This document shows, one piece after another, positions 10,324-33,969 of a stretch of DNA of 48,618 bases. The notes beneath the pieces are model-generated. The model had not been told where the DNA came from and ran no database searches. It saw only the letters and a program-made list of their open reading frames with translations. How positions within the stretch are numbered: the stretch's first letter is position 1; each line of letters begins with the position of its first letter. The translations under genes and the position numbers were made by a program. The stretch covers positions 1 to 48,618 of the IMG/VR virus record IMGVR_UViG_3300031977_001417, one strand, 5' to 3'. This DNA comes from a virus.

Positions 10324-10779
10324 TTATAACTTTCCGCCTTTAGATCTTTGTTCTATTCTCCGTATCTCTTCCAACTGTTCGTCAGTTAAAATACGCAGAG
10401 CCTCTTTAGCTTTATTAAAGCTGTACCCGAAATACTTTTGTATTAGTTCGAGATTCTCTTCTTCACTCTTTAGCCATTTACCATAGCGTTTGCCTTTTCT
10501 TACCACCGTCTGTAGAAAGTCATATTGCATTTTCTTATCAAGATGTGGACGTGAGTTCATTTCATTAGATGCAATTACTGTATCAGGATTAAAACCCAAC
10601 CCACGATTAACGATAAAAGGATTGTATTCGTTCTCAGTCCTCTCATCAATAATTAAATTCTGTTTTGTAAAATTAATGCTGTTAACAAAGTCAAAAGGAG
10701 AAATCTTAGCAAGTTTTTCTGTAAACTCTTCTTCTTTAATCTCTTCAACTGCAGGGCCGAAGCCTTCTAAAATGCTCAT
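10324..10779 (-). CDS. 62: Clamp loader small subunit (T4 gp62)
   Basis: A 151-residue protein carrying the gp62 hallmark KGKRYGKWLK near residues 94-103, plus a helical C-terminus (NKAKEALRILTDEQLEEI). With gp44 it forms the clamp loader that places gp45 on DNA using ATP. It is shorter than T4 gp62 (187 residues). AAGGA precedes the ATG, and the gene overlaps the upstream radical SAM gene by four bases (ATGA). In T4, genes 44 and 62 are adjacent; here a radical SAM gene and a 39-codon gene separate them. Confidence 0.88.
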   Translation of the reverse strand: MSILEGFGPAVEEIKEEEFTEKLAKISPFDFVNSINFTKQNLIIDERTENEYNPFIVNRGLGFNPDTVIASNEMNSRPHLDKKMQYDFLQTVVRKGKRYGKWLKSEEENLELIQKYFGYSFNKAKEALRILTDEQLEEIRRIEQRSKGGKL

Positions 10780-11876
10780 AATATTTCCTTAACAAATAGA
10801 CTATCTATCAGTCTATCATTACCACCTTGTTTACCGCATTGTATCCAACATTGGTTAATAGTTTTATTTTCCCAACTGTTACTATACATGTCTAGTGCTC
10901 CATTGTCAAGCACTTCTTGTAAACTATAGTGATACAAATTATTTCTATTTCCTATAGCTGCCTGCACATGTCTCACTTCTGTAGCTTCTTCTATGTAAGC
11001 AGGTCCGTACATTTTGTTACCTACAAAGCAACAAGGCTGTACACGCCCTAAATGATCTATGTACACCTCGCACATCTGTGTCTCATGCTGAGGGGGTTGG
11101 TGCATTCTAAAAGAGTTACAATCAATGCAACCATTTCTTTCTTCTACAATAGGCAATGGTGCTTCATAGCCTAGTGGATAAGGTACATACGGATCTTTAT
11201 TTGAATCTTCATAGTGATTAATCACATAGTCTAATTCAAAGTTTCTATCATACACCGGCATACCAATACCGTCTACACCAAAAGGATTTTTCAATCTAAA
11301 GTCTACACCTAAACTTTCTGCTATTTGTCTAGCCTCATCTATTTGATGATTGTTATGTGCAAATCTTAAAAAGTCCCACGCTGTATTGGCGCCTGTAGAG
11401 GCAAATGCTTTTAAGTTTGCAAATGCCTTCTCCCATTTAACTTGTCTGCGATATAGGTGATTTGTATCTCTTAATCCGTCTAATGAGAAAACAACCTCTC
11501 GCTGTACACCATCTATTGATGTAGCTGCCGCTAAAGTGTTACCTAAGTCAGTGAAAAACTTCTCGCCTCGAAGTCCTCCGTTTGTATTAATTTGTATTTG
11601 TCCTGGGCTGTGTTCACAAATGTACTGTAAAATTTCTACCAAGTCTTTACATGTAATTGGATCTCCATGTGTACCACAAATGATCCAATTTTTAATTTTA
11701 GAAAGTGCGTCGGGGCTAAACCAAGACATAAAATCCTCTATAGTAATATCCCTTTGCTGTAGTTCGGGATCTACTAATGGAGAATTTCTCAAGTAACGGG
11801 GACAGCCCGGACAAGCAGCGTTACAACGACTGCTCAGTTCAAGATGAACCGCATTTAGTTTAGCGTAGGACCACAC
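10776..11876 (-). CDS. Radical SAM protein with SPASM-like C-terminal domain
   Basis: A 366-residue enzyme with the radical SAM cluster motif C18-x3-C22-x2-C25 (SSRCNAACPGCP), followed by a partial TIM-barrel. The C-terminal third has C250-x2-C253, C269, C282-C283 (MCEVYIDHLGRVQPCC) and C343-x3-C347, the spacing of an auxiliary-cluster SPASM or twitch domain. SPASM enzymes usually modify peptides or proteins. The GTG start directly follows the stop of a 39-codon basic peptide gene, and the stop overlaps gene 62 by four bases. It is embedded in the clamp-loader operon. The substrate is unknown. Confidence 0.88.
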   Translation of the reverse strand: MWSYAKLNAVHLELSSRCNAACPGCPRYLRNSPLVDPELQQRDITIEDFMSWFSPDALSKIKNWIICGTHGDPITCKDLVEILQYICEHSPGQIQINTNGGLRGEKFFTDLGNTLAAATSIDGVQREVVFSLDGLRDTNHLYRRQVKWEKAFANLKAFASTGANTAWDFLRFAHNNHQIDEARQIAESLGVDFRLKNPFGVDGIGMPVYDRNFELDYVINHYEDSNKDPYVPYPLGYEAPLPIVEERNGCIDCNSFRMHQPPQHETQMCEVYIDHLGRVQPCCFVGNKMYGPAYIEEATEVRHVQAAIGNRNNLYHYSLQEVLDNGALDMYSNSWENKTINQCWIQCGKQGGNDRLIDSLFVKEIL

Positions 11877-15726: not shown

Positions 15727-16246
15727 TCTTAATCCTAATATAACAAAACAATACATACTGATCTTGCTTGCTTGCGTTTACTCTGTAGGCATATTGCCAT
15801 GTACATGGTGCTACTGTAACTTTACCTTGTACTTGACATGCCTGTGCGCCAGCTTGTGGAAACTGTACACCACCATCTTCTACAGTGTTTAAATGTATCA
15901 TGATAACGAGCCTTCTTCGTGCGGCCCCAAAGTTATCAAAAAACAATTCTTGTCCTGCATCACCAACCTTTTTTATGACACATGATTCTATTTCACAGTC
16001 CTGAGGTTTTAATGCTTCAATCACATTGTCTGGCACTAAGGCACAATAGTCTCCAAACGCTTTAACGAATGCTTTTTTAGCAAGTTTTGTTAAAGCACCG
16101 TCAGTACACTCATACCATTCAGCGTTTTTAAATTCAACCTTCCGGCTTTGTTGTTGTTCGTCCTCACAAAAAGAAACGAACTCGGCGCAATCCTTTGCGC
16201 CGAGCTCGCCGTCCAGGTAAAGTATGTAATTAGAAAGTGGAGTCAT
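15710..16246 (-). CDS. Degenerate 2OG-Fe(II) oxygenase-fold protein
   Basis: A protein of about 178 residues whose middle and end follow a phage 2OG oxygenase template: ELFFDNFGAARRRLVIMIHL, then EDGGVQFP, a small-residue turn, and TWQYAYRVNAS. In active relatives the first ligand pair reads H-x-D-N-F and the distal ligand sits in a Y-V-H-R-type segment. Here these positions are F102-F-D104 and Y154, so both iron-binding histidines are missing. It is probably non-catalytic or uses another metal site. The start at 16246 overlaps cobS by 17 bases; 16255 is an alternative. Confidence 0.65.
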   Translation of the reverse strand: MTPLSNYILYLDGELGAKDCAEFVSFCEDEQQQSRKVEFKNAEWYECTDGALTKLAKKAFVKAFGDYCALVPDNVIEALKPQDCEIESCVIKKVGDAGQELFFDNFGAARRRLVIMIHLNTVEDGGVQFPQAGAQACQVQGKVTVAPCTWQYAYRVNASKQDQYVLFCYIRIKNEKAL

Positions 16247-17420
16247 CAAATCCATCTTCCTCATCTTCACTGGACTGGTTGGTGCCTTCGTGGGTGAGGT
16301 CCACTCCAGCATCTACCTTACTATACAAGTCAATGAATGCTTGTTTAGTGTCGGTATCAAAACGGTTAACACAGAGCTCAATAGCCTTGAGCTTATCACC
16401 GAACATTGCGAATGCGTTCACAATGTGTTCAAGTCGGCGTGTGCTAACCAACTCGTCAATGGCACCTTCGTAAAAAGTCTTACGGATGACTTCGGACCAT
16501 GTGACCAGGTTTGTCGCAAACTCTTCATCTGTGCAGTTTGCCTTAGCCATCTTATTGAGAATGATTTTCTTCTCTGTGGCTGCTGTAGGGTACTCCTGCT
16601 CTACCGTAACGGCGAATCGCTCCAGGAATGCTTCGTCCAGTAGCTGAGCGCTAATGAACTTACCATCATCCGATCCTCGGCCCTTTGTATTAGCAGTGGC
16701 AACCACTGTAAAGCCGGGAGCAGGAGTAACGGTTTCGCCGGTTTTCTTGTTGAAGTACGCTTTACCTTCAAGGATGGCCTGGAGACACATCAACTTGTTG
16801 GATCCGCGGTCTACTTCATCAAGAATAAGAACCGCGCCACGTTTCATGGCGGTGAGGACCGGTCCTTCTCGATACACGACATTACCGTCAACTAGTGTAT
16901 TGCCACCGATCAAATCGTCCTCATCGGTTTCAATACTAATGTTTACACGAATGGCCTCTCGCTTGAGGTTCGCACAAACTTGTTCTACCATTGTAGTTTT
17001 ACCGTTACCGGACAAACCACTGATAAAAATTGGGTAAAACATACCGGACTGAAGCACCTTCTTCAAGTCTCGGTAAAAGCCAAAGGGTACAAAAGTATCG
17101 TCTTTGGCAGGAATTAGGTTCTCGATATCCACGTTTAACTTTGCCTGGGTTACAACCTTGGCAGCTTCGGACTCTATAACCATCACTGGCTCTTTAGGAG
17201 TCAAAGGCACCACGTTGGCATTGCCTTGGTACATTGCGACACTATACTTGCCTCGCTGTACCCGTGCTGTTTCGTCTTTCAAAAGCCAGTGCGGGAAGGG
17301 GTGTCCTAGTTCTGCCGCAGTATCAATAATTTCTTGTCGCGTTAAAAAGCGTCCATCGGTTGTTGCACTCTTAAGAGAGTTGATGAGCTCTTCTTTTTGC
17401 ACTTGGGTTGTCTTAGTCAT
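16230..17420 (-). CDS. cobS: CobS-like AAA+ ATPase
   Basis: A 396-residue MoxR/CobS-type AAA+ ATPase with Walker A GLSGNGKT (135-142), Walker B LILDEVD (198-204) and an arginine-finger region (EAFLERFAV). In bacteria CobS with CobT and CobN inserts cobalt into the corrin ring of vitamin B12. Phage CobS is widespread in marine T4-like phages, but its real role is unsettled. A sigma70-type promoter lies at 17466-17494, nearly identical to the one before the cobT-like gene. The gene looks richer in G+C than its neighbours (28 of 60 bases in 16381-16440, against 13 of 60 in 28201-28260). Confidence 0.93.
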   Translation of the reverse strand: MTKTTQVQKEELINSLKSATTDGRFLTRQEIIDTAAELGHPFPHWLLKDETARVQRGKYSVAMYQGNANVVPLTPKEPVMVIESEAAKVVTQAKLNVDIENLIPAKDDTFVPFGFYRDLKKVLQSGMFYPIFISGLSGNGKTTMVEQVCANLKREAIRVNISIETDEDDLIGGNTLVDGNVVYREGPVLTAMKRGAVLILDEVDRGSNKLMCLQAILEGKAYFNKKTGETVTPAPGFTVVATANTKGRGSDDGKFISAQLLDEAFLERFAVTVEQEYPTAATEKKIILNKMAKANCTDEEFATNLVTWSEVIRKTFYEGAIDELVSTRRLEHIVNAFAMFGDKLKAIELCVNRFDTDTKQAFIDLYSKVDAGVDLTHEGTNQSSEDEEDGFDDSTF

Positions 17421-17543: not shown

Positions 17544-19751
17544 TTAGGCAACCATATCCATAAACTTGGCTAGGAACACTCGGTTCTGCACCTTGTCTTT
17601 GTTGAAATTACGGAAGCCTCGGAGCAAATCGCCTTTGCTGTTGGACTTGACTTCTAGTTCAGTGTTCTCAATTTTGAGGCTCTTACCACCTTTGAGTATG
17701 AAGCGCTTGTCGAATGCCTGAGTAGCGTCCACAACCACAACACCAGTCTTGCGCTGCTTGCTAACGATTGCTTCACGTTCGCTCCAACCCATGTTACTCC
17801 ACTCGCTAATTTCTTGTTCAAGCGTTCGGGCGGACCATTGATCAGCAATGAAGTAATTAATAACTTTGCCACCAACAATCTGACGGTACAGTTCAATCAT
17901 ACCCATTGCATCTTTTGTACCACTGTAGGCGTAAATATCAGTTGGTACCGTTACCATAACGTTGCCTTGACGGAACACTGCACGTTCTTGGGTTCCCCGG
18001 GTACTAGTAGGGTATTGATACTCTTCACTTTGAAGGGACTCAACGTGATCAGTTGCACCGCCGTCAGTAAGGAAGATGCTGTTAACAATCTCCACGTTAT
18101 TGTCTTTACGAAACTTTCGAGCAACCTCAATAGCAAATGGTATGCTATTGTTAAGAGGAGTACCTGCTAAGTCATAGTGTTTGTTCTTAATCTCTACATA
18201 GTCGCCAGTCTCACCTCGTGAGTAGCGAGCTTCAATTGAGTATTTGAACATCAACAAGTGCTTGTAGGCTTCGTTCATCTGACGCTTGTTAAACAAAGAG
18301 GAGCCTAAGTGGCGGAAGGAGATATCCTGTACCCACATCTCACCAATGGCACCTTTATGTTTCATGGTTTCTTCTTCGTAACGAGCGGTTGTAAAACCGT
18401 AAACTTCAAAAGGAATGTTTACCTTACGGCAGAACATCATGAGCGTAATAAGTTGGTCAATGGTACCAGGCATGTTACGGAACATGCTGCCTGACATGTC
18501 TAAGTAAAGTAGCATGCCGTGGTTCTTACCTTCTGGGATCAACATGGACTGCTTGAACAAGTCCTCTGTCAACTTGTAAGCCCACAGCTTGTTCTCATTC
18601 AAGTCACCGGTCTTAGACACCTTTGCCTTGTTAAGTACCTGTGCCTTACGCTTCATTTCGAACTGCTGAGCCATCTGGTTGATAGTAGAGCGGTTGTCAC
18701 GAATAAAGTCGCCAACAAGCTGATTAGCCAGTGGCTCTAGCGATTGGCCTTCTTTAGAACGGTAATAGTAGGCAAACGAAGTATCAATACCTGAGTACAT
18801 AGTCTTGGCAGGAACAATTAAGTCCTTCCAGTTTGGCAGTCGAGGAATGTCAAAGTAGCGGTTAACTTTGTTGTCCTCGCTGAGAAGCTTGTCTTCGTTC
18901 TCACGAAATGCCTCGTCAGTAATTGAGTGTCCGCCTTCGTTGTCCATCCACTCTTTAAGTGGTTCGGCAATGTCGCCTTCGCCTTCTTCAAAATCGTCGT
19001 CTTCCGTCTCTTTGTCTTCTTCCTCAGCGTCCGATTGCTGGTTAGAAACGGGAGCTTGTCCTTCTAATTCTTCTGTTTCTTCTTCAGGCTTTTCGTAACC
19101 TTCTGAGGACATGGACTCACCAAATTCAAAGTCGTTGTCTTCGTCATCTTCGTCTGACTCTTCGGGAGTATAACCTAACTCCTCTGCCATTTTTTCTGCT
19201 TCTTCTTGAGAATGTCCGTAAAGTTCTTCGCCTAGGGCAACTACATCGTCCCAAGTCTGAAGATCATATACCTTGTTAACAAGGAGCTGTTCATCAGCGC
19301 TGAACTGAATGTTAAGGAAGCTACCAACCTTAAAGTGTAGGTTGATGCGATCAATAAGGGGGAGGGTGTTAACGTCTATACCTTTAACACCAAAAAAATC
19401 TTTTTCAAATAGTTCTTTGTACCCGGCATAAAAGCTCTTAACCAAGCCTGGGTAACGTTGCTTCGTCATACGTTCTTGACGAGCGTCTTCTAATACATTA
19501 AGGAAGGACTTAATCTGAGGATTGGCTTTAACATTATCGTGCCAGCCTTCTTCGGGAGTTTCTAGAGCGTGTCCTACTTCGTGTCCAATAAGCAAGTCGT
19601 ATACTGCGGGGGACATCTCTTTCCACATAGGGAGGATGAGTTTGCGGGATTTAAGATCGAACATGGCAGTAGGCACCTTCTGATGCTCTACTGTCAAGTT
19701 CTCAGTAGCCAAACACTTGGCTAGGATCGATTTGGATTCAATTACTTGCAT
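17544..19751 (-). CDS. CobT-like protein: HExxH metallopeptidase motif plus VWA domain
   Basis: A 735-residue three-part protein. The N-terminal domain has HEVGH at 57-61 inside LLIGHEVGHALETPEEGWHD, with a later acidic ED segment (LEDARQERM), the look of a zinc metallopeptidase. A very acidic linker spans about 195-262. The C-terminal half is a von Willebrand A domain with the MIDAS motif D418-x-S420-x-S422 (LYLDMSGSM). VWA proteins pair with MoxR/CobS AAA+ ATPases, so this protein and CobS probably form one chaperone-like machine; it is the CobT equivalent. A promoter lies at 19790-19818. Confidence 0.88.
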   Translation of the reverse strand: MQVIESKSILAKCLATENLTVEHQKVPTAMFDLKSRKLILPMWKEMSPAVYDLLIGHEVGHALETPEEGWHDNVKANPQIKSFLNVLEDARQERMTKQRYPGLVKSFYAGYKELFEKDFFGVKGIDVNTLPLIDRINLHFKVGSFLNIQFSADEQLLVNKVYDLQTWDDVVALGEELYGHSQEEAEKMAEELGYTPEESDEDDEDNDFEFGESMSSEGYEKPEEETEELEGQAPVSNQQSDAEEEDKETEDDDFEEGEGDIAEPLKEWMDNEGGHSITDEAFRENEDKLLSEDNKVNRYFDIPRLPNWKDLIVPAKTMYSGIDTSFAYYYRSKEGQSLEPLANQLVGDFIRDNRSTINQMAQQFEMKRKAQVLNKAKVSKTGDLNENKLWAYKLTEDLFKQSMLIPEGKNHGMLLYLDMSGSMFRNMPGTIDQLITLMMFCRKVNIPFEVYGFTTARYEEETMKHKGAIGEMWVQDISFRHLGSSLFNKRQMNEAYKHLLMFKYSIEARYSRGETGDYVEIKNKHYDLAGTPLNNSIPFAIEVARKFRKDNNVEIVNSIFLTDGGATDHVESLQSEEYQYPTSTRGTQERAVFRQGNVMVTVPTDIYAYSGTKDAMGMIELYRQIVGGKVINYFIADQWSARTLEQEISEWSNMGWSEREAIVSKQRKTGVVVVDATQAFDKRFILKGGKSLKIENTELEVKSNSKGDLLRGFRNFNKDKVQNRVFLAKFMDMVA

Positions 19752-19863: not shown

Positions 19864-20256
19864 TTATCTACGCTTCCACTCTTCGATTCGGGCTCTTGAA
19901 CAGCCGTCATAGCCACGATATCGTGTATCACATCGTCCAAATCCCATTCCAGGGGTGTTTGGATTGTACAGTGGAAACCCGCGTCTGTCGAGCTCGTACA
20001 CTCTATTGTTCTCAATGATTGTGATGTGTGCATTGGGAACGTTGCGGTTATAATGATAGTGGTTGTAATAATCATAATGATCATTATAGTGCTCATGCCT
20101 ATGGCGTCTTGAGTGTCCTCTATGATCATGATTATCAATCACCTTACCTAAGATGATACCACCAATAACTCCAGCAACGACATCGCTAGTATCAGCAGCC
20201 TGTGCTGATGTTGACATAAGTGCTGTTGCTGTTACTGCAATTAAAAGTTTTTTCAT
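19864..20256 (-). CDS. Exported histidine-rich protein
   Basis: A 130-residue protein with a clear Sec signal peptide (MKKLLIAVTATALMSTSAQA, cleaved after residue 20). A short glycine-rich hydrophobic stretch follows (VVAGVIGGIILGKVI, 26-40), then nine histidines within residues 43-68, mixed with Asp, Arg and Tyr. Two cysteines near the end (109, 119) could form a disulfide. It should reside in the periplasm or outer membrane and could bind Zn, Ni, Co or Cu. It lies directly downstream of the TonB-dependent receptor gene. Upstream are both a sigma70-like promoter (20282-20310) and a late TATAAATA box (20275-20282), with GGAG before the ATG. Confidence 0.8.
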   Translation of the reverse strand: MKKLLIAVTATALMSTSAQAADTSDVVAGVIGGIILGKVIDNHDHRGHSRRHRHEHYNDHYDYYNHYHYNRNVPNAHITIIENNRVYELDRRGFPLYNPNTPGMGFGRCDTRYRGYDGCSRARIEEWKRR

Positions 20257-20274: not shown

Positions 20275-20282
20275 TATTTATA
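20275..20282 (-). promoter_or_regulatory. Late promoter TATAAATA before the His-rich gene
   Basis: A perfect late box 18 bases before the ATG at 20256, partly overlapping the sigma70-type -10 at 20282-20287. Early and late expression of the same gene is possible. Confidence 0.55.
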
Positions 20283-20310
20283 TTATGGACTCTTTTTAGT
20301 TAGAAGTCAA
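20282..20310 (-). promoter_or_regulatory. Sigma70-like promoter for the His-rich gene
   Basis: TTGACT, 17 bases, CATAAT (one mismatch in the -10) upstream of the exported His-rich protein. Confidence 0.6.
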
Positions 20311-20341: not shown

Positions 20342-21847
20342 TCAATACTTTAGGTTATACCCTACATGATATTCAATGCCACCAAGGGGATAGCCGTTTT
20401 GGATCTCATATTTCTCATCGGTAATGTTGGTAATTGAAGCAAACATTCCATTGAATTCGTAGCTGACATCTACTGTAGTTACCCATTGATTGCTGCTTAC
20501 CTGAGCAGTTAAATCTTTCCACTGTGCAGTTATACTACCCATCCAAGGAGATACCATTTGTTGATCACTATCAGTATACCCTACCATGACATTTACATTT
20601 GCATCGCCCAAATTATAATTGTCCATAAATCTTACACCGCTTGTAGAATACCCTCCAGTGTTTTCAAATTGATTGAAATCAAAATTGTATGTGATGCCTT
20701 CGTTAAAATTATATGCAAAGGCTGTAACAGGTCCTAATGAAACATCGATGCCGTAGGACTCTTCAGCATCTAAATTGTTATTTGACATGACGTATGCGTC
20801 TCCATATTGTTCATATAATGTTGGTTCTCTGTATGCCGATCCAATAGCAACATCTACACCAGTGAGTACGGGAACCATAAATCCTACTCTGGCTGCTACA
20901 TTAGTTCCATCTGTTCTAAAGGAAAAACCATCGTACTCAGCATAAGCTTCTATTCTTTCTCTGGTTTGTCCTGCAAATTTTTCAGCGTTTATTGTGGCAC
21001 CATATAGTAAATCGCCGTATTCATTTCTTGCGTCGCCGTAAAATCTTTCTGACTTGCTCTTATATCCATTACCCTCATTTGGAAAGTTTGCATTGTTAAA
21101 ACTATATCCTAAGGTTAGATTATCATTATTATAAGATAGTGTACCTCGTTCCCCCTCTTGTTTACAATCATTAGACCAAAGAGACATATTAAATTCTAAT
21201 TCTGATACCTGAGTAAGGGTAGGCTGATAACATCTGTCGTAGTCGTATGAATAATCAGTGTACACTATATTAAAGTTATTGTATTTTCCACGGAAGGTAT
21301 AGTTTTTGTATCTGTCTTTTTCTTCGTTGTCTGATCTTACTGAATCATTTTTAGCATCAAAAGCTGTAAATGAAACTCCTAGTTCGTTAGATACATGTAG
21401 TAGTCTACTTCTTGATCCATATCGAAATACTAATCTGTCATCAAATGTATCTTCAATGAACACTGTCCCTGCAAGAGATCCAGATCCATAAATGGTAGAG
21501 TTTCCACCGTGTACTACTTTTATCTTTTCTGAACCAGTAGGAATGTCATGAGCAAAATCATACCAACCAGTTCCAGAGTCGTTTACAGGAATACCATTGC
21601 GGTATATTTGAGAGTGGATAGTTTGTTGTCCGCGTTCACGAAAACCAGCAAACCCACCGTAGCCACCTTGTGTATATTGCATCGCGGGTTGAAGCATTTC
21701 TGATATTGTCAGATCTAGTTCAGGCTCTGCTTGTAGTTCTGTTATTGGTGCACTAGTTACTACAATCTCTTGAAGTTCTTCTGCAAAAATATTGTTAGTG
21801 AAGTATAAAAATAATACTAATAAATTAATCCGTACGCAATGCACCAT
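20342..21847 (-). CDS. TonB-dependent outer-membrane receptor
   Basis: A 501-residue protein with every landmark of a TonB-dependent receptor. A signal peptide ends near A22. A TonB box (EIVVTS, 27-32) follows, then a plug domain (about 35-135) with YRNGIPVND and the motif VVHGGNSTIYGSGSLAGTVF. A beta-barrel of alternating aromatic strands ends in the aromatic residue Tyr (GGIEYHVGYNLKY). Such receptors import ferric siderophores, cobalamin, haem or glycans using TonB energy. It is shorter than BtuB (about 594 residues mature) but has plug and barrel. Flanking genes are phage genes on the same strand. The start overlaps a small ORF by 31 bases. Confidence 0.9.
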   Translation of the reverse strand: MVHCVRINLLVLFLYFTNNIFAEELQEIVVTSAPITELQAEPELDLTISEMLQPAMQYTQGGYGGFAGFRERGQQTIHSQIYRNGIPVNDSGTGWYDFAHDIPTGSEKIKVVHGGNSTIYGSGSLAGTVFIEDTFDDRLVFRYGSRSRLLHVSNELGVSFTAFDAKNDSVRSDNEEKDRYKNYTFRGKYNNFNIVYTDYSYDYDRCYQPTLTQVSELEFNMSLWSNDCKQEGERGTLSYNNDNLTLGYSFNNANFPNEGNGYKSKSERFYGDARNEYGDLLYGATINAEKFAGQTRERIEAYAEYDGFSFRTDGTNVAARVGFMVPVLTGVDVAIGSAYREPTLYEQYGDAYVMSNNNLDAEESYGIDVSLGPVTAFAYNFNEGITYNFDFNQFENTGGYSTSGVRFMDNYNLGDANVNVMVGYTDSDQQMVSPWMGSITAQWKDLTAQVSSNQWVTTVDVSYEFNGMFASITNITDEKYEIQNGYPLGGIEYHVGYNLKY

Positions 21848-21975
21848 AGTTCTAATCCCATTTTATATAAGGCCCACAATGTTATAAGAGCTACAGCTCC
21901 TCCTAACACATGAGCAACACCATTAGATATAGTCTTCGTATGCGTCTCCTTTATCGAAGTCTTCCACAAGTTCAT
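21817..21975 (-). CDS. Possible small membrane protein overlapping lysin and receptor genes
   Basis: A frame of up to 52 residues (MNLWKTSIKETHTK start) whose last 30 residues are strongly hydrophobic (AHVLGGAVALITLWALYKMG and ELWCIAYGLIY), suggesting one or two membrane helices. It overlaps the M15 lysin gene at its start and the receptor gene at its end. No good ribosome site precedes this ATG; a GTG just downstream of the lysin stop could be used instead. A holin or small envelope peptide next to a lysin gene would make sense. Evidence is weak, and the frame could be chance. Confidence 0.35.
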   Translation of the reverse strand: MNLWKTSIKETHTKTISNGVAHVLGGAVALITLWALYKMGLELWCIAYGLIY

Positions 21976-22423
21976 ATCTGGTCTTTTTTCCATCTTTAAA
22001 GGCAATTAATTTTGCCCCTCTATTTTTTCCATCTGCTCTAACAGATGCATGTACCCAGCCTGAGTTTGCACCTTCTGCTGGATTGTAAAATTCTAAAATT
22101 ACTTGATCGAATTCACAATGTTCTGTGATCCAATCAGCAAGTACTTTGTTTGGTACTCCATCAATTTCCATATCAACAGCTTGTCCGTTACAATGCTGTG
22201 AAGTTTTAGAGCCTCCAACTGCTTTGTTTAGCTCAGGAGATCTGTAACCGCTGTTAATACGAACAGGCTTACCGAATGCCTCTCTTACTGGCTGACAAAT
22301 TTTTTCCACCACATACTTAAGGCTTTCCATGTGTTCGCCCTGTGGTGTATTGTCAATACCTAACCTAGATGCTGTTGCGCTCCTGGTAAATTCTTTTAGC
22401 TGAAAGTTTTCGCTTAGCTGCAT
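21923..22423 (-). CDS. M15-family peptidase, probable endolysin
   Basis: A 166-residue M15 (VanY/D-Ala-D-Ala carboxypeptidase-like) domain. The zinc motif is SQHCNGQAVDME (H-x3-G-x2-x-D form), with the second half-site in GWVHASV, and RINSGYRSPELNKAVGG precedes it as in the family. It cleaves peptidoglycan cross-links and is the best lysin candidate in the window. The ATG has AAGGA eight bases upstream and overlaps the ClpP-like gene by 59 bases. It likely shares the late transcript starting at 23374-23381. Confidence 0.9.
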   Translation of the reverse strand: MQLSENFQLKEFTRSATASRLGIDNTPQGEHMESLKYVVEKICQPVREAFGKPVRINSGYRSPELNKAVGGSKTSQHCNGQAVDMEIDGVPNKVLADWITEHCEFDQVILEFYNPAEGANSGWVHASVRADGKNRGAKLIAFKDGKKTRYELVEDFDKGDAYEDYI

Positions 22424-33081: not shown

Positions 33082-33969
33082 TTACGTTCCAATTTGGTTA
33101 CCAAATACATAAGCATGATTACGAGTGGCAACCTTGTATCCTCGTTTCATAGCTTCGACACAAATGTCTGCTACCTCTTCTTGTTCTTCTTTTGTAGCAC
33201 CAACTGGCATAATCCAAATATCCGGCACAGTCATTTCTGCAAATGAACAATACTCTTGAACTTGACGCACATAACCTTCTATTTCTTTCCAGCTCTCATC
33301 TGTGCCGTTACAAACAAATTTAAGACAGCCAGTGCTAGTTGTATTAAAAATGTAAGACATAAAATTATCAACATCTACTTTTCCAACCTCGCCAGCAGTG
33401 TGTAGTGTTTTAGGACTAATAGCCCAATGCCAACGAATGCCCATCTCTGCTAAGTATATGTTAATAAAGTCTTGCAAGTCTTTGTTTAGTTTTTTTGTGC
33501 CATTTGTTTCTACTGTAATAATCTTAGGCACATTACCGCGAATAAGAAACTCATTAACCATAGCCTTCATCTGTCTTTGTTGTAGCATAGGTTCGCCACC
33601 TGTAAAGGCTAACATGTTTTCTTGTTTTGTAATAGGGTGTGTAAATTTACCATAAGGAAGAAGCTCTTCAAGTTTATTACATGCCTCTTCTGGATTTGTA
33701 TCTTGTGCAAGATGTTTATACTTCATTGACCAAGAGTATGAGGAGTCACAACCATATTCCCATACAGGAAGATCCTCTACTTGTTTAACATTAATTAAAT
33801 CGTAGTCTTTATATGGTAGTTTCCAAGTATCTGGATCTGAGGGTTTAGTTTGTCCAAAGCCATTACACTCTAGGTTACAACCAAAGAATCTAATCCATAC
33901 CGTTGGCGTACCAGCCAGTTCAGCCTCGCCTTGGAACGAATAAAACATTTCAGAATAACGTATCTTCAC
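33082..33969 (-). CDS. queE: QueE-like 7-carboxy-7-deazaguanine synthase
   Basis: A 295-residue radical SAM protein starting like QueE (FYSFQGEAELAGTPTVWIRF). The cluster cysteines are C31-x3-C35, and C74 (YGCDSS) is the likely third ligand, so about 38 residues separate the second and third Cys, a longer form of the known QueE loop variation. TGGEP (123-127) and a later VETNGT follow. It converts carboxytetrahydropterin to CDG, the base precursor. A sigma70-type promoter lies at 34006-34033 inside the end of gene 55. Confidence 0.9.
   Translation of the reverse strand: MKIRYSEMFYSFQGEAELAGTPTVWIRFFGCNLECNGFGQTKPSDPDTWKLPYKDYDLINVKQVEDLPVWEYGCDSSYSWSMKYKHLAQDTNPEEACNKLEELLPYGKFTHPITKQENMLAFTGGEPMLQQRQMKAMVNEFLIRGNVPKIITVETNGTKKLNKDLQDFINIYLAEMGIRWHWAISPKTLHTAGEVGKVDVDNFMSYIFNTTSTGCLKFVCNGTDESWKEIEGYVRQVQEYCSFAEMTVPDIWIMPVGATKEEQEEVADICVEAMKRGYKVATRNHAYVFGNQIGT

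Follow-up and report, generated by a model that had tools for sequence, protein, structure and literature searches.

A gene for a BtuB-like TonB-dependent receptor in a T4-like phage contig and its viral relatives

The receptor gene and its neighbourhood

The stretch of DNA analysed here, referred to as the window, is a 48,618-base IMG/VR record with a T4-like gene set that includes DNA polymerase, UvsX, a helicase, clamp, clamp loader, gp46/47, a DexA-like exonuclease and UvsW in addition to gp23, gp22, gp20 and gp18. By its sequence the contig belongs to a T4-like phage, whose gp23 is 70% identical to that of Methylophilales phage Melnitz and 69% identical to that of Pelagibacter phage HTVC008M. 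An uninterrupted ORF at positions 20342–21847, on the minus strand like all other window features given below, starts with ATG and encodes 501 amino acids. The reading frame itself, Pfam, and profile and fold comparisons identify it as a gene for a BtuB-like TonB-dependent receptor. The preliminary description had proposed a TonB-dependent outer-membrane receptor encoded by a T4-like phage, and this is borne out by the profile matches, the predicted fold and about 250 viral relatives.

The protein begins with a probable signal peptide (residues 1–22, MVHCVRINLLVLFLYFTNNIFA; 21782–21847), read from the sequence and modelled as a helix at residues 5–15. This short hydrophobic leader is directly followed by a TonB box, EIVVTS (residues 27–32; 21752–21769), which is conserved in the family, and by a plug domain (residues 34–133; 21449–21748) that is supported by Pfam, alignment and model and carries the family signature GWYDFAHD at residues 94–101. 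The Pfam Plug profile PF07715 matches residues 46–128 with E=1.5e-9 and 38.7 bits (cut-off 23.9). Residues 138–500 (20348–21436) form a 22-stranded barrel in the AlphaFold2 model. Within this region DNEEKD (residues 173–178; 21314–21331) lies in and beside loop L2 according to the model and an alignment with BtuB, while D204 and an invariant Cys pair, C206 to C228, surround loop L3 (21164–21238). In a Pfam search of the receptor with E values up to 1 the plug was the only match and no barrel model (PF00593 type) was found, so that the barrel assignment depends on the predicted structure; a Pfam barrel match is a profile criterion and no defining structural feature of TonB-dependent receptors. 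No PHROGs family matches the protein and a phmmer search of PDB sequences with the single receptor sequence gave no match either, which makes it remote from described sequences.

The gene order in the window is lysin, small ORF, receptor and His-rich protein, placed between ClpP and cobT. The flanks noted from the outset, a lysin gene and cobT/cobS-like genes, are confirmed: an M15-type endolysin gene (21923–22423; Pfam, PHROG) lies upstream and cobT- and cobS-like genes of the T4 family lie downstream (17544–19751, PHROG 459; 16230–17420, an AAA gene matched by Pfam and PHROG 249); the cobT-like gene is common in T4-like cyanophages and pelagiphages. Between lysin and receptor, and overlapping both, is a small ORF with a TTG start and one apparent membrane segment (21817–22005); an internal Met start is possible, and the ORF could be a holin or part of a spanin. 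Directly downstream of the receptor, a gene at 19864–20256 encodes a secreted-looking His-rich protein of 130 aa, possibly a metal-binding periplasmic protein. A promoter-like site precedes it at 20275–20310, defined by pattern only, in which a sigma-70-like TTGACT with TAATAT overlaps the T4-late-like TATAAATA. Neither pattern was seen upstream of the receptor in a pattern search, and the receptor may be transcribed together with the lysin gene. The window also contains a QueE-like radical-SAM gene (33082–33969) and a second, weak radical-SAM match (10776–11876).

The same lysin-receptor-His-rich-cobT-cobS order is present, at 69–94% identity, in contigs from two other metagenome assemblies (L002 and L003), and the junctions in the window are therefore real. 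The small ORF is 71% identical in these two contigs. Copies of the His-rich protein are 69–78% identical and, among the viral loci tested, confined to the window, L002 and L003; it was thus discarded as a general partner of the receptor. In HTVC008M three hypothetical genes separate gp46 from cobT and no receptor is annotated there. The closest long metagenomic relative of the window phage (G789, gp23 82% identical) has the order gp47-gp46-PDF-hypothetical-ClpP-(1.1 kb)-cobT-cobS. Its lysin gene lies at another place, and a plug domain was not detected in any part of the 171-kb contig. The receptor cassette, missing from the closest long relatives of the window phage, is accessory in this lineage related to Melnitz and HTVC008M. 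The adjacent cobT and cobS genes were rejected as evidence for a link to B12, since HTVC008M and G789 have both without the receptor.

A family found in viruses

The search for the gene in related phages, suggested in the preliminary description, gave far more than the two matching loci. Relatives were encoded by 29 IMG/VR contigs with one protein as query, then by 167 and finally by at least 249 with alignments, although some of these contigs could share their origin. Complete copies have about 490–670 aa; in all 32 contigs checked the open frame contains no stop, and PF07715 was found in the contigs of 32/32 relatives. In independent assemblies the receptor gene has phage genes on either side, and the family is carried by many T4-like phages, several of which are relatives of marine isolates. 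Most relatives belong to a second T4-like lineage with the order gp32-UvsX-UvsY-AAA protein-receptor-UvsW, while the window copy forms a divergent branch of the family tree with those of L002 and L004. Considering only uvsW loci with at least 1 kb of upstream sequence, the receptor is the gene immediately upstream of uvsW in 65 of 71 and is absent from six, which makes the gene near-core in the second lineage. One of the receptor-less contigs (L316) has no plug domain across its 89 kb. Another receptor-less uvsW locus has, upstream of its AAA gene, a small His-rich ORF whose product looks secreted (L307:299–631). In several relatives a phage AdoMet synthetase gene recurs near the receptor, for example a few genes further downstream at L013:14409–15515.

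The sequence features recognized in the window protein hold across the family. A simple rule assigns a leader-like N terminus to 83/95 non-redundant members, in line with the signal peptide initially proposed. An equivalent of the TonB box is present in every one of the 92 rows whose 5′ end is complete (88 by pattern, 4 by eye); together with the Pfam match above cut-off this confirms the box and plug first read from a single sequence. The gene is under purifying selection, with a median dN/dS of 0.14 and a maximum of 0.26 over 40 pairs.

Cellular homologues are distant. Searching about 85,000 species genomes for the two best-conserved motifs of the family yielded 28 pattern matches, none of them a relative. 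A broader scan returned at least 64 cellular receptors, the best of which by E-value, among the matches listed, shows an identity of only about 27%, and this over just part of the protein, so that no donor lineage can be named. The cellular receptors listed score at most 100 bits against the family profile, whereas viral rows reach at least 389 bits on a similar profile except for one fragment of 113 aa that is truncated by the end of its contig. No single match exceeded 64.6 bits when 369 gammaproteobacterial and 385 alphaproteobacterial genomes were searched with a profile. In a tree of 63 phage and 40 cellular sequences the split between phage and cellular branches has a support of 100, although it is a quick tree in which long branches join at that split. 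On these comparisons the family is a virus-only clade within the collections sampled. With three members as queries, INPHARED phage records gave no convincing match; the weak ones (E about 0.005–1) were to Salmonella contigs, one unannotated Salmonella phage record, one human-gut record and btuB of Acinetobacter records.

Phages normally exploit TonB-dependent receptors and seldom encode them. That such a gene is unusual for a phage, and that the closest long relatives of the window phage do not have it, might be taken to indicate a host gene fragment, an assembly chimera or a gene acquired recently and without function. This explanation can hardly be maintained. A chimera or contaminating host fragment is excluded by the identical junctions in two other assemblies and by the roughly 250 viral relatives, which form a single clade apart from cellular homologues with no cellular member found in the collections sampled, and a dN/dS of about 0.14 argues against a non-functional gene.

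Predicted fold and relationship to BtuB

In an earlier AlphaFold model, built on 13 sequences, the plug was of poor quality, and we therefore used a model based on 58 family sequences. With a mean pLDDT of 86.0 and a pTM of 0.84 it has a confident plug and exactly 22 barrel strands, an architecture that remains a prediction in the absence of a solved structure. A small hairpin in loop L3 lies between the two invariant cysteines, and C206 and C228 are predicted to form a probable extracellular disulphide enclosing it. The proposal of an intact barrel with a C-terminal aromatic residue is upheld as far as the 22 modelled strands are concerned, but there is no Pfam barrel match and the last residue is aromatic in just 53/95 non-redundant members (an aromatic residue is among the last three in 91/95).

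Comparison with known receptors, as originally suggested, places BtuB first. In a Foldseek search of solved structures the first 14 matches are all BtuB, headed by the BtuB:TonB complex 2gsk (E=9e-20, TMq 0.71). The family profile against PDB sequences likewise finds E. coli BtuB with 4e-22 and next PhuR with 1.6e-4. An almost full-length alignment links one relative (L044) with E. coli BtuB (24.8% over 605 columns, E=4e-16), identity to this protein being about 25% at best. BtuB is thus the best solved relative in sequence as well as in modelled fold. All 25 members tested match the NCBIfam model TIGR01779 (TonB-B12), with a best E-value of 3.8e-21. The curated cut-off of this model is 599.7 bits, and L094 with 43.7 bits is far below it; a best E-value of 3.8e-21 is also far off. 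As none of the 25 has been shown to attain this equivalog cut-off, we use the label BtuB-like without implying a demonstrated BtuB.

The acidic motif near L2 bears on the question of the ligand. The first D, the N and the last D of DNEEKD in the window protein are the counterparts of BtuB D193, N194 and D195, which align with D (48/49), N (49/49) and D (49/49) in the family. We take D193 and D195 to be calcium-cage aspartates of BtuB; the residue numbers that we assume for the cage (D179, D193, D195, D230, D241) were each verified as Asp in the BtuB sequence. At the family positions aligned with D179, D230 and D241 there is no conserved Asp; other invariant Asp residues of the receptor (202, 204) lie nearby. 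The work that we can cite for the cage supports only 'five aspartates', describing two Ca ions in a five-aspartate cage and loops L2–L5 as key to B12 binding (PMC7360065). GWYDFAHD in the plug is the other invariant patch of the family. A cobalamin riboswitch was not detected at the Rfam gathering score in the window or in four relatives, but BtuB does not strictly require one upstream.

Possible function and comparison with known systems

We favour the reading that the gene encodes a phage BtuB-type TonB-dependent transporter which imports a scarce ligand, most likely a corrinoid, by means of the host TonB, and we would give it a probability slightly above one half. The receptor would be exported during infection through its leader and inserted in the host outer membrane, where host TonB-ExbBD would energise it through its TonB box. 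No TonB gene was found in 21 receptor-bearing phage contigs, and a host partner is therefore needed. Uptake of the scarce ligand might in this way be maintained or raised while host receptors are no longer made, and the ligand would be handed on to the host inner-membrane system. The benefit could lie in the methionine/SAM supply of the host or, in some of these phages, in B12-binding radical-SAM enzymes. Export, expression during infection, TonB coupling, transport, the identity of the ligand and the benefit to the phage are all inferred. Cobalamin or another corrinoid is the most likely ligand and our best guess, in the absence of any binding or uptake data.

B12-binding domains score above cut-off in only 5 of 33 records, and the window record is not among them. 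Radical-SAM proteins of about 620 aa with such domains are encoded in some receptor-bearing phages, at L281:279–2129, L282:1486–3342 and L284:62–1930; none above cut-off was detected in HTVC008M, Melnitz, G789 or G790. A B12-dependent (class II) ribonucleotide reductase was considered as a rationale and dismissed, as NrdA is always accompanied by NrdB (14/14 contigs bearing NrdA). The contigs L004–L007 (G001, G009, G030, G031) encode a 599-aa large chain of ribonucleotide reductase and, close to it, NrdB, a pair resembling that of Melnitz, in which the large chain is annotated 'vitamin B12-dependent' despite the adjoining small chain.

The receptor could also be a TonB-powered importer of a different ligand, such as heme, a ferric siderophore, a cofactor like PQQ, or a metal, BtuB being merely its nearest solved relative. 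TonB-dependent receptors are known to switch ligand within subfamilies. Heme-receptor models match 12–16 of the 25 members tested, albeit more weakly (best 2.3e-9), the conserved His, Trp and Tyr of GWYDFAHD could contact a different ligand, and the low identity to E. coli BtuB leaves room for such a change. The secreted-looking His-rich protein adjoining the receptor in the window would fit as well, but its restriction to three contigs weakens this point, and BtuB is far ahead of all other receptors in sequence and first in fold. We consider a different ligand rather unlikely, without being able to dismiss it.

Of the two functions suggested in the preliminary description, the evidence favours nutrient uptake over superinfection exclusion, given the conserved TonB box, plug and ligand-side loops, the low dN/dS and BtuB as the nearest family. 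A role in receptor warfare would mean that the phage protein replaces or crowds out a host receptor against superinfection, or draws off competing phages or colicin-like toxins as a decoy. Both BtuB and FhuA are classic receptors for phages and colicins, and the fold matches in the PDB include FhuA bound to T5 pb5. The location of the gene within a uvsX-uvsY-uvsW block in the second lineage would, by inference, be compatible with expression before lysis. An arms-race surface is expected to be hypervariable, whereas the mean top-residue frequency is higher in the extracellular loops (0.57) than in the periplasmic turns (0.36) and similar to that of the strands (0.53); moreover, the TonB box and the plug are retained although they would be dispensable for a decoy. 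We therefore judge this role improbable.

For the family as a whole, the TonB-powered uptake that we prefer leads to a broader proposal, which we hold with about even confidence: a virus-specific BtuB-like clade with its own plug signature and disulphide, near-core in one T4-like lineage and present also in the lineage related to Melnitz and HTVC008M, through which phages control vitamin import by way of host TonB. Given a virus-only family that is almost constantly present in one lineage, infected cells probably have a virus-installed nutrient gate. Phage metabolic genes are mostly intracellular enzymes, and a near-constant outer-membrane transporter would mean that the virus rebuilds the surface gate for a scarce nutrient. 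The usual picture of phages exploiting TonB receptors is reversed when a phage encodes one. B12 is limiting for many plankton, and its uptake by infected cells could thus affect vitamin flux. The family also provides clean, testable proteins for studying vitamin acquisition by virocells and receptor-based competition between phages.

Two phage-encoded TonB-dependent receptors are mentioned in the open-access literature searched, but a BtuB-like, virus-specific and near-core family seems to be unreported there. The marine megaphage Mar_Mega_1 encodes a SusC-like TonB-dependent receptor proposed for carbohydrate (PMC9723777), which like the present one has been suggested to raise uptake in infection. 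The sole strong full-length match among predicted viral structures (BFVD) is A0A8D9FQQ5, a SusC-like receptor named SusC from an uncultured marine phage, perhaps the Mar_Mega_1 protein itself. The SusC-type viral receptor belongs to another family and is larger (805 residues in the BFVD model); with 10% identity and a TMq of 0.52, neither size nor sequence allows the window protein to be classed as SusC-type. In pelagiphage Skadi a gene is annotated 'TonB-dependent receptor protein' (PMC10504331), and this annotation is the common point; the Skadi gene sits among virion genes and was taken by its authors as a hint to the adsorption receptor. Cellular BtuB-like receptors (from Afifella marina, L191, Desulfuromonadales, L225, and others) have a homologous plug and barrel but fall into a separate clade. 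With E. coli BtuB (2gsk, 1nqh) the phage receptor shares a TonB box after the leader, a plug and 22-strand barrel that can be aligned over nearly the full length, the D-N-D motif near L2 and a similar C-terminal segment ending with conserved E, Y and G. BtuB is longer (614 aa versus 501 aa in the window protein), the N terminus of the plug of the phage receptor is shorter by about 14 residues, and three of the five Ca-cage aspartates are not conserved at the aligned positions, while the invariant L3 Cys pair and the plug signature are absent from BtuB.
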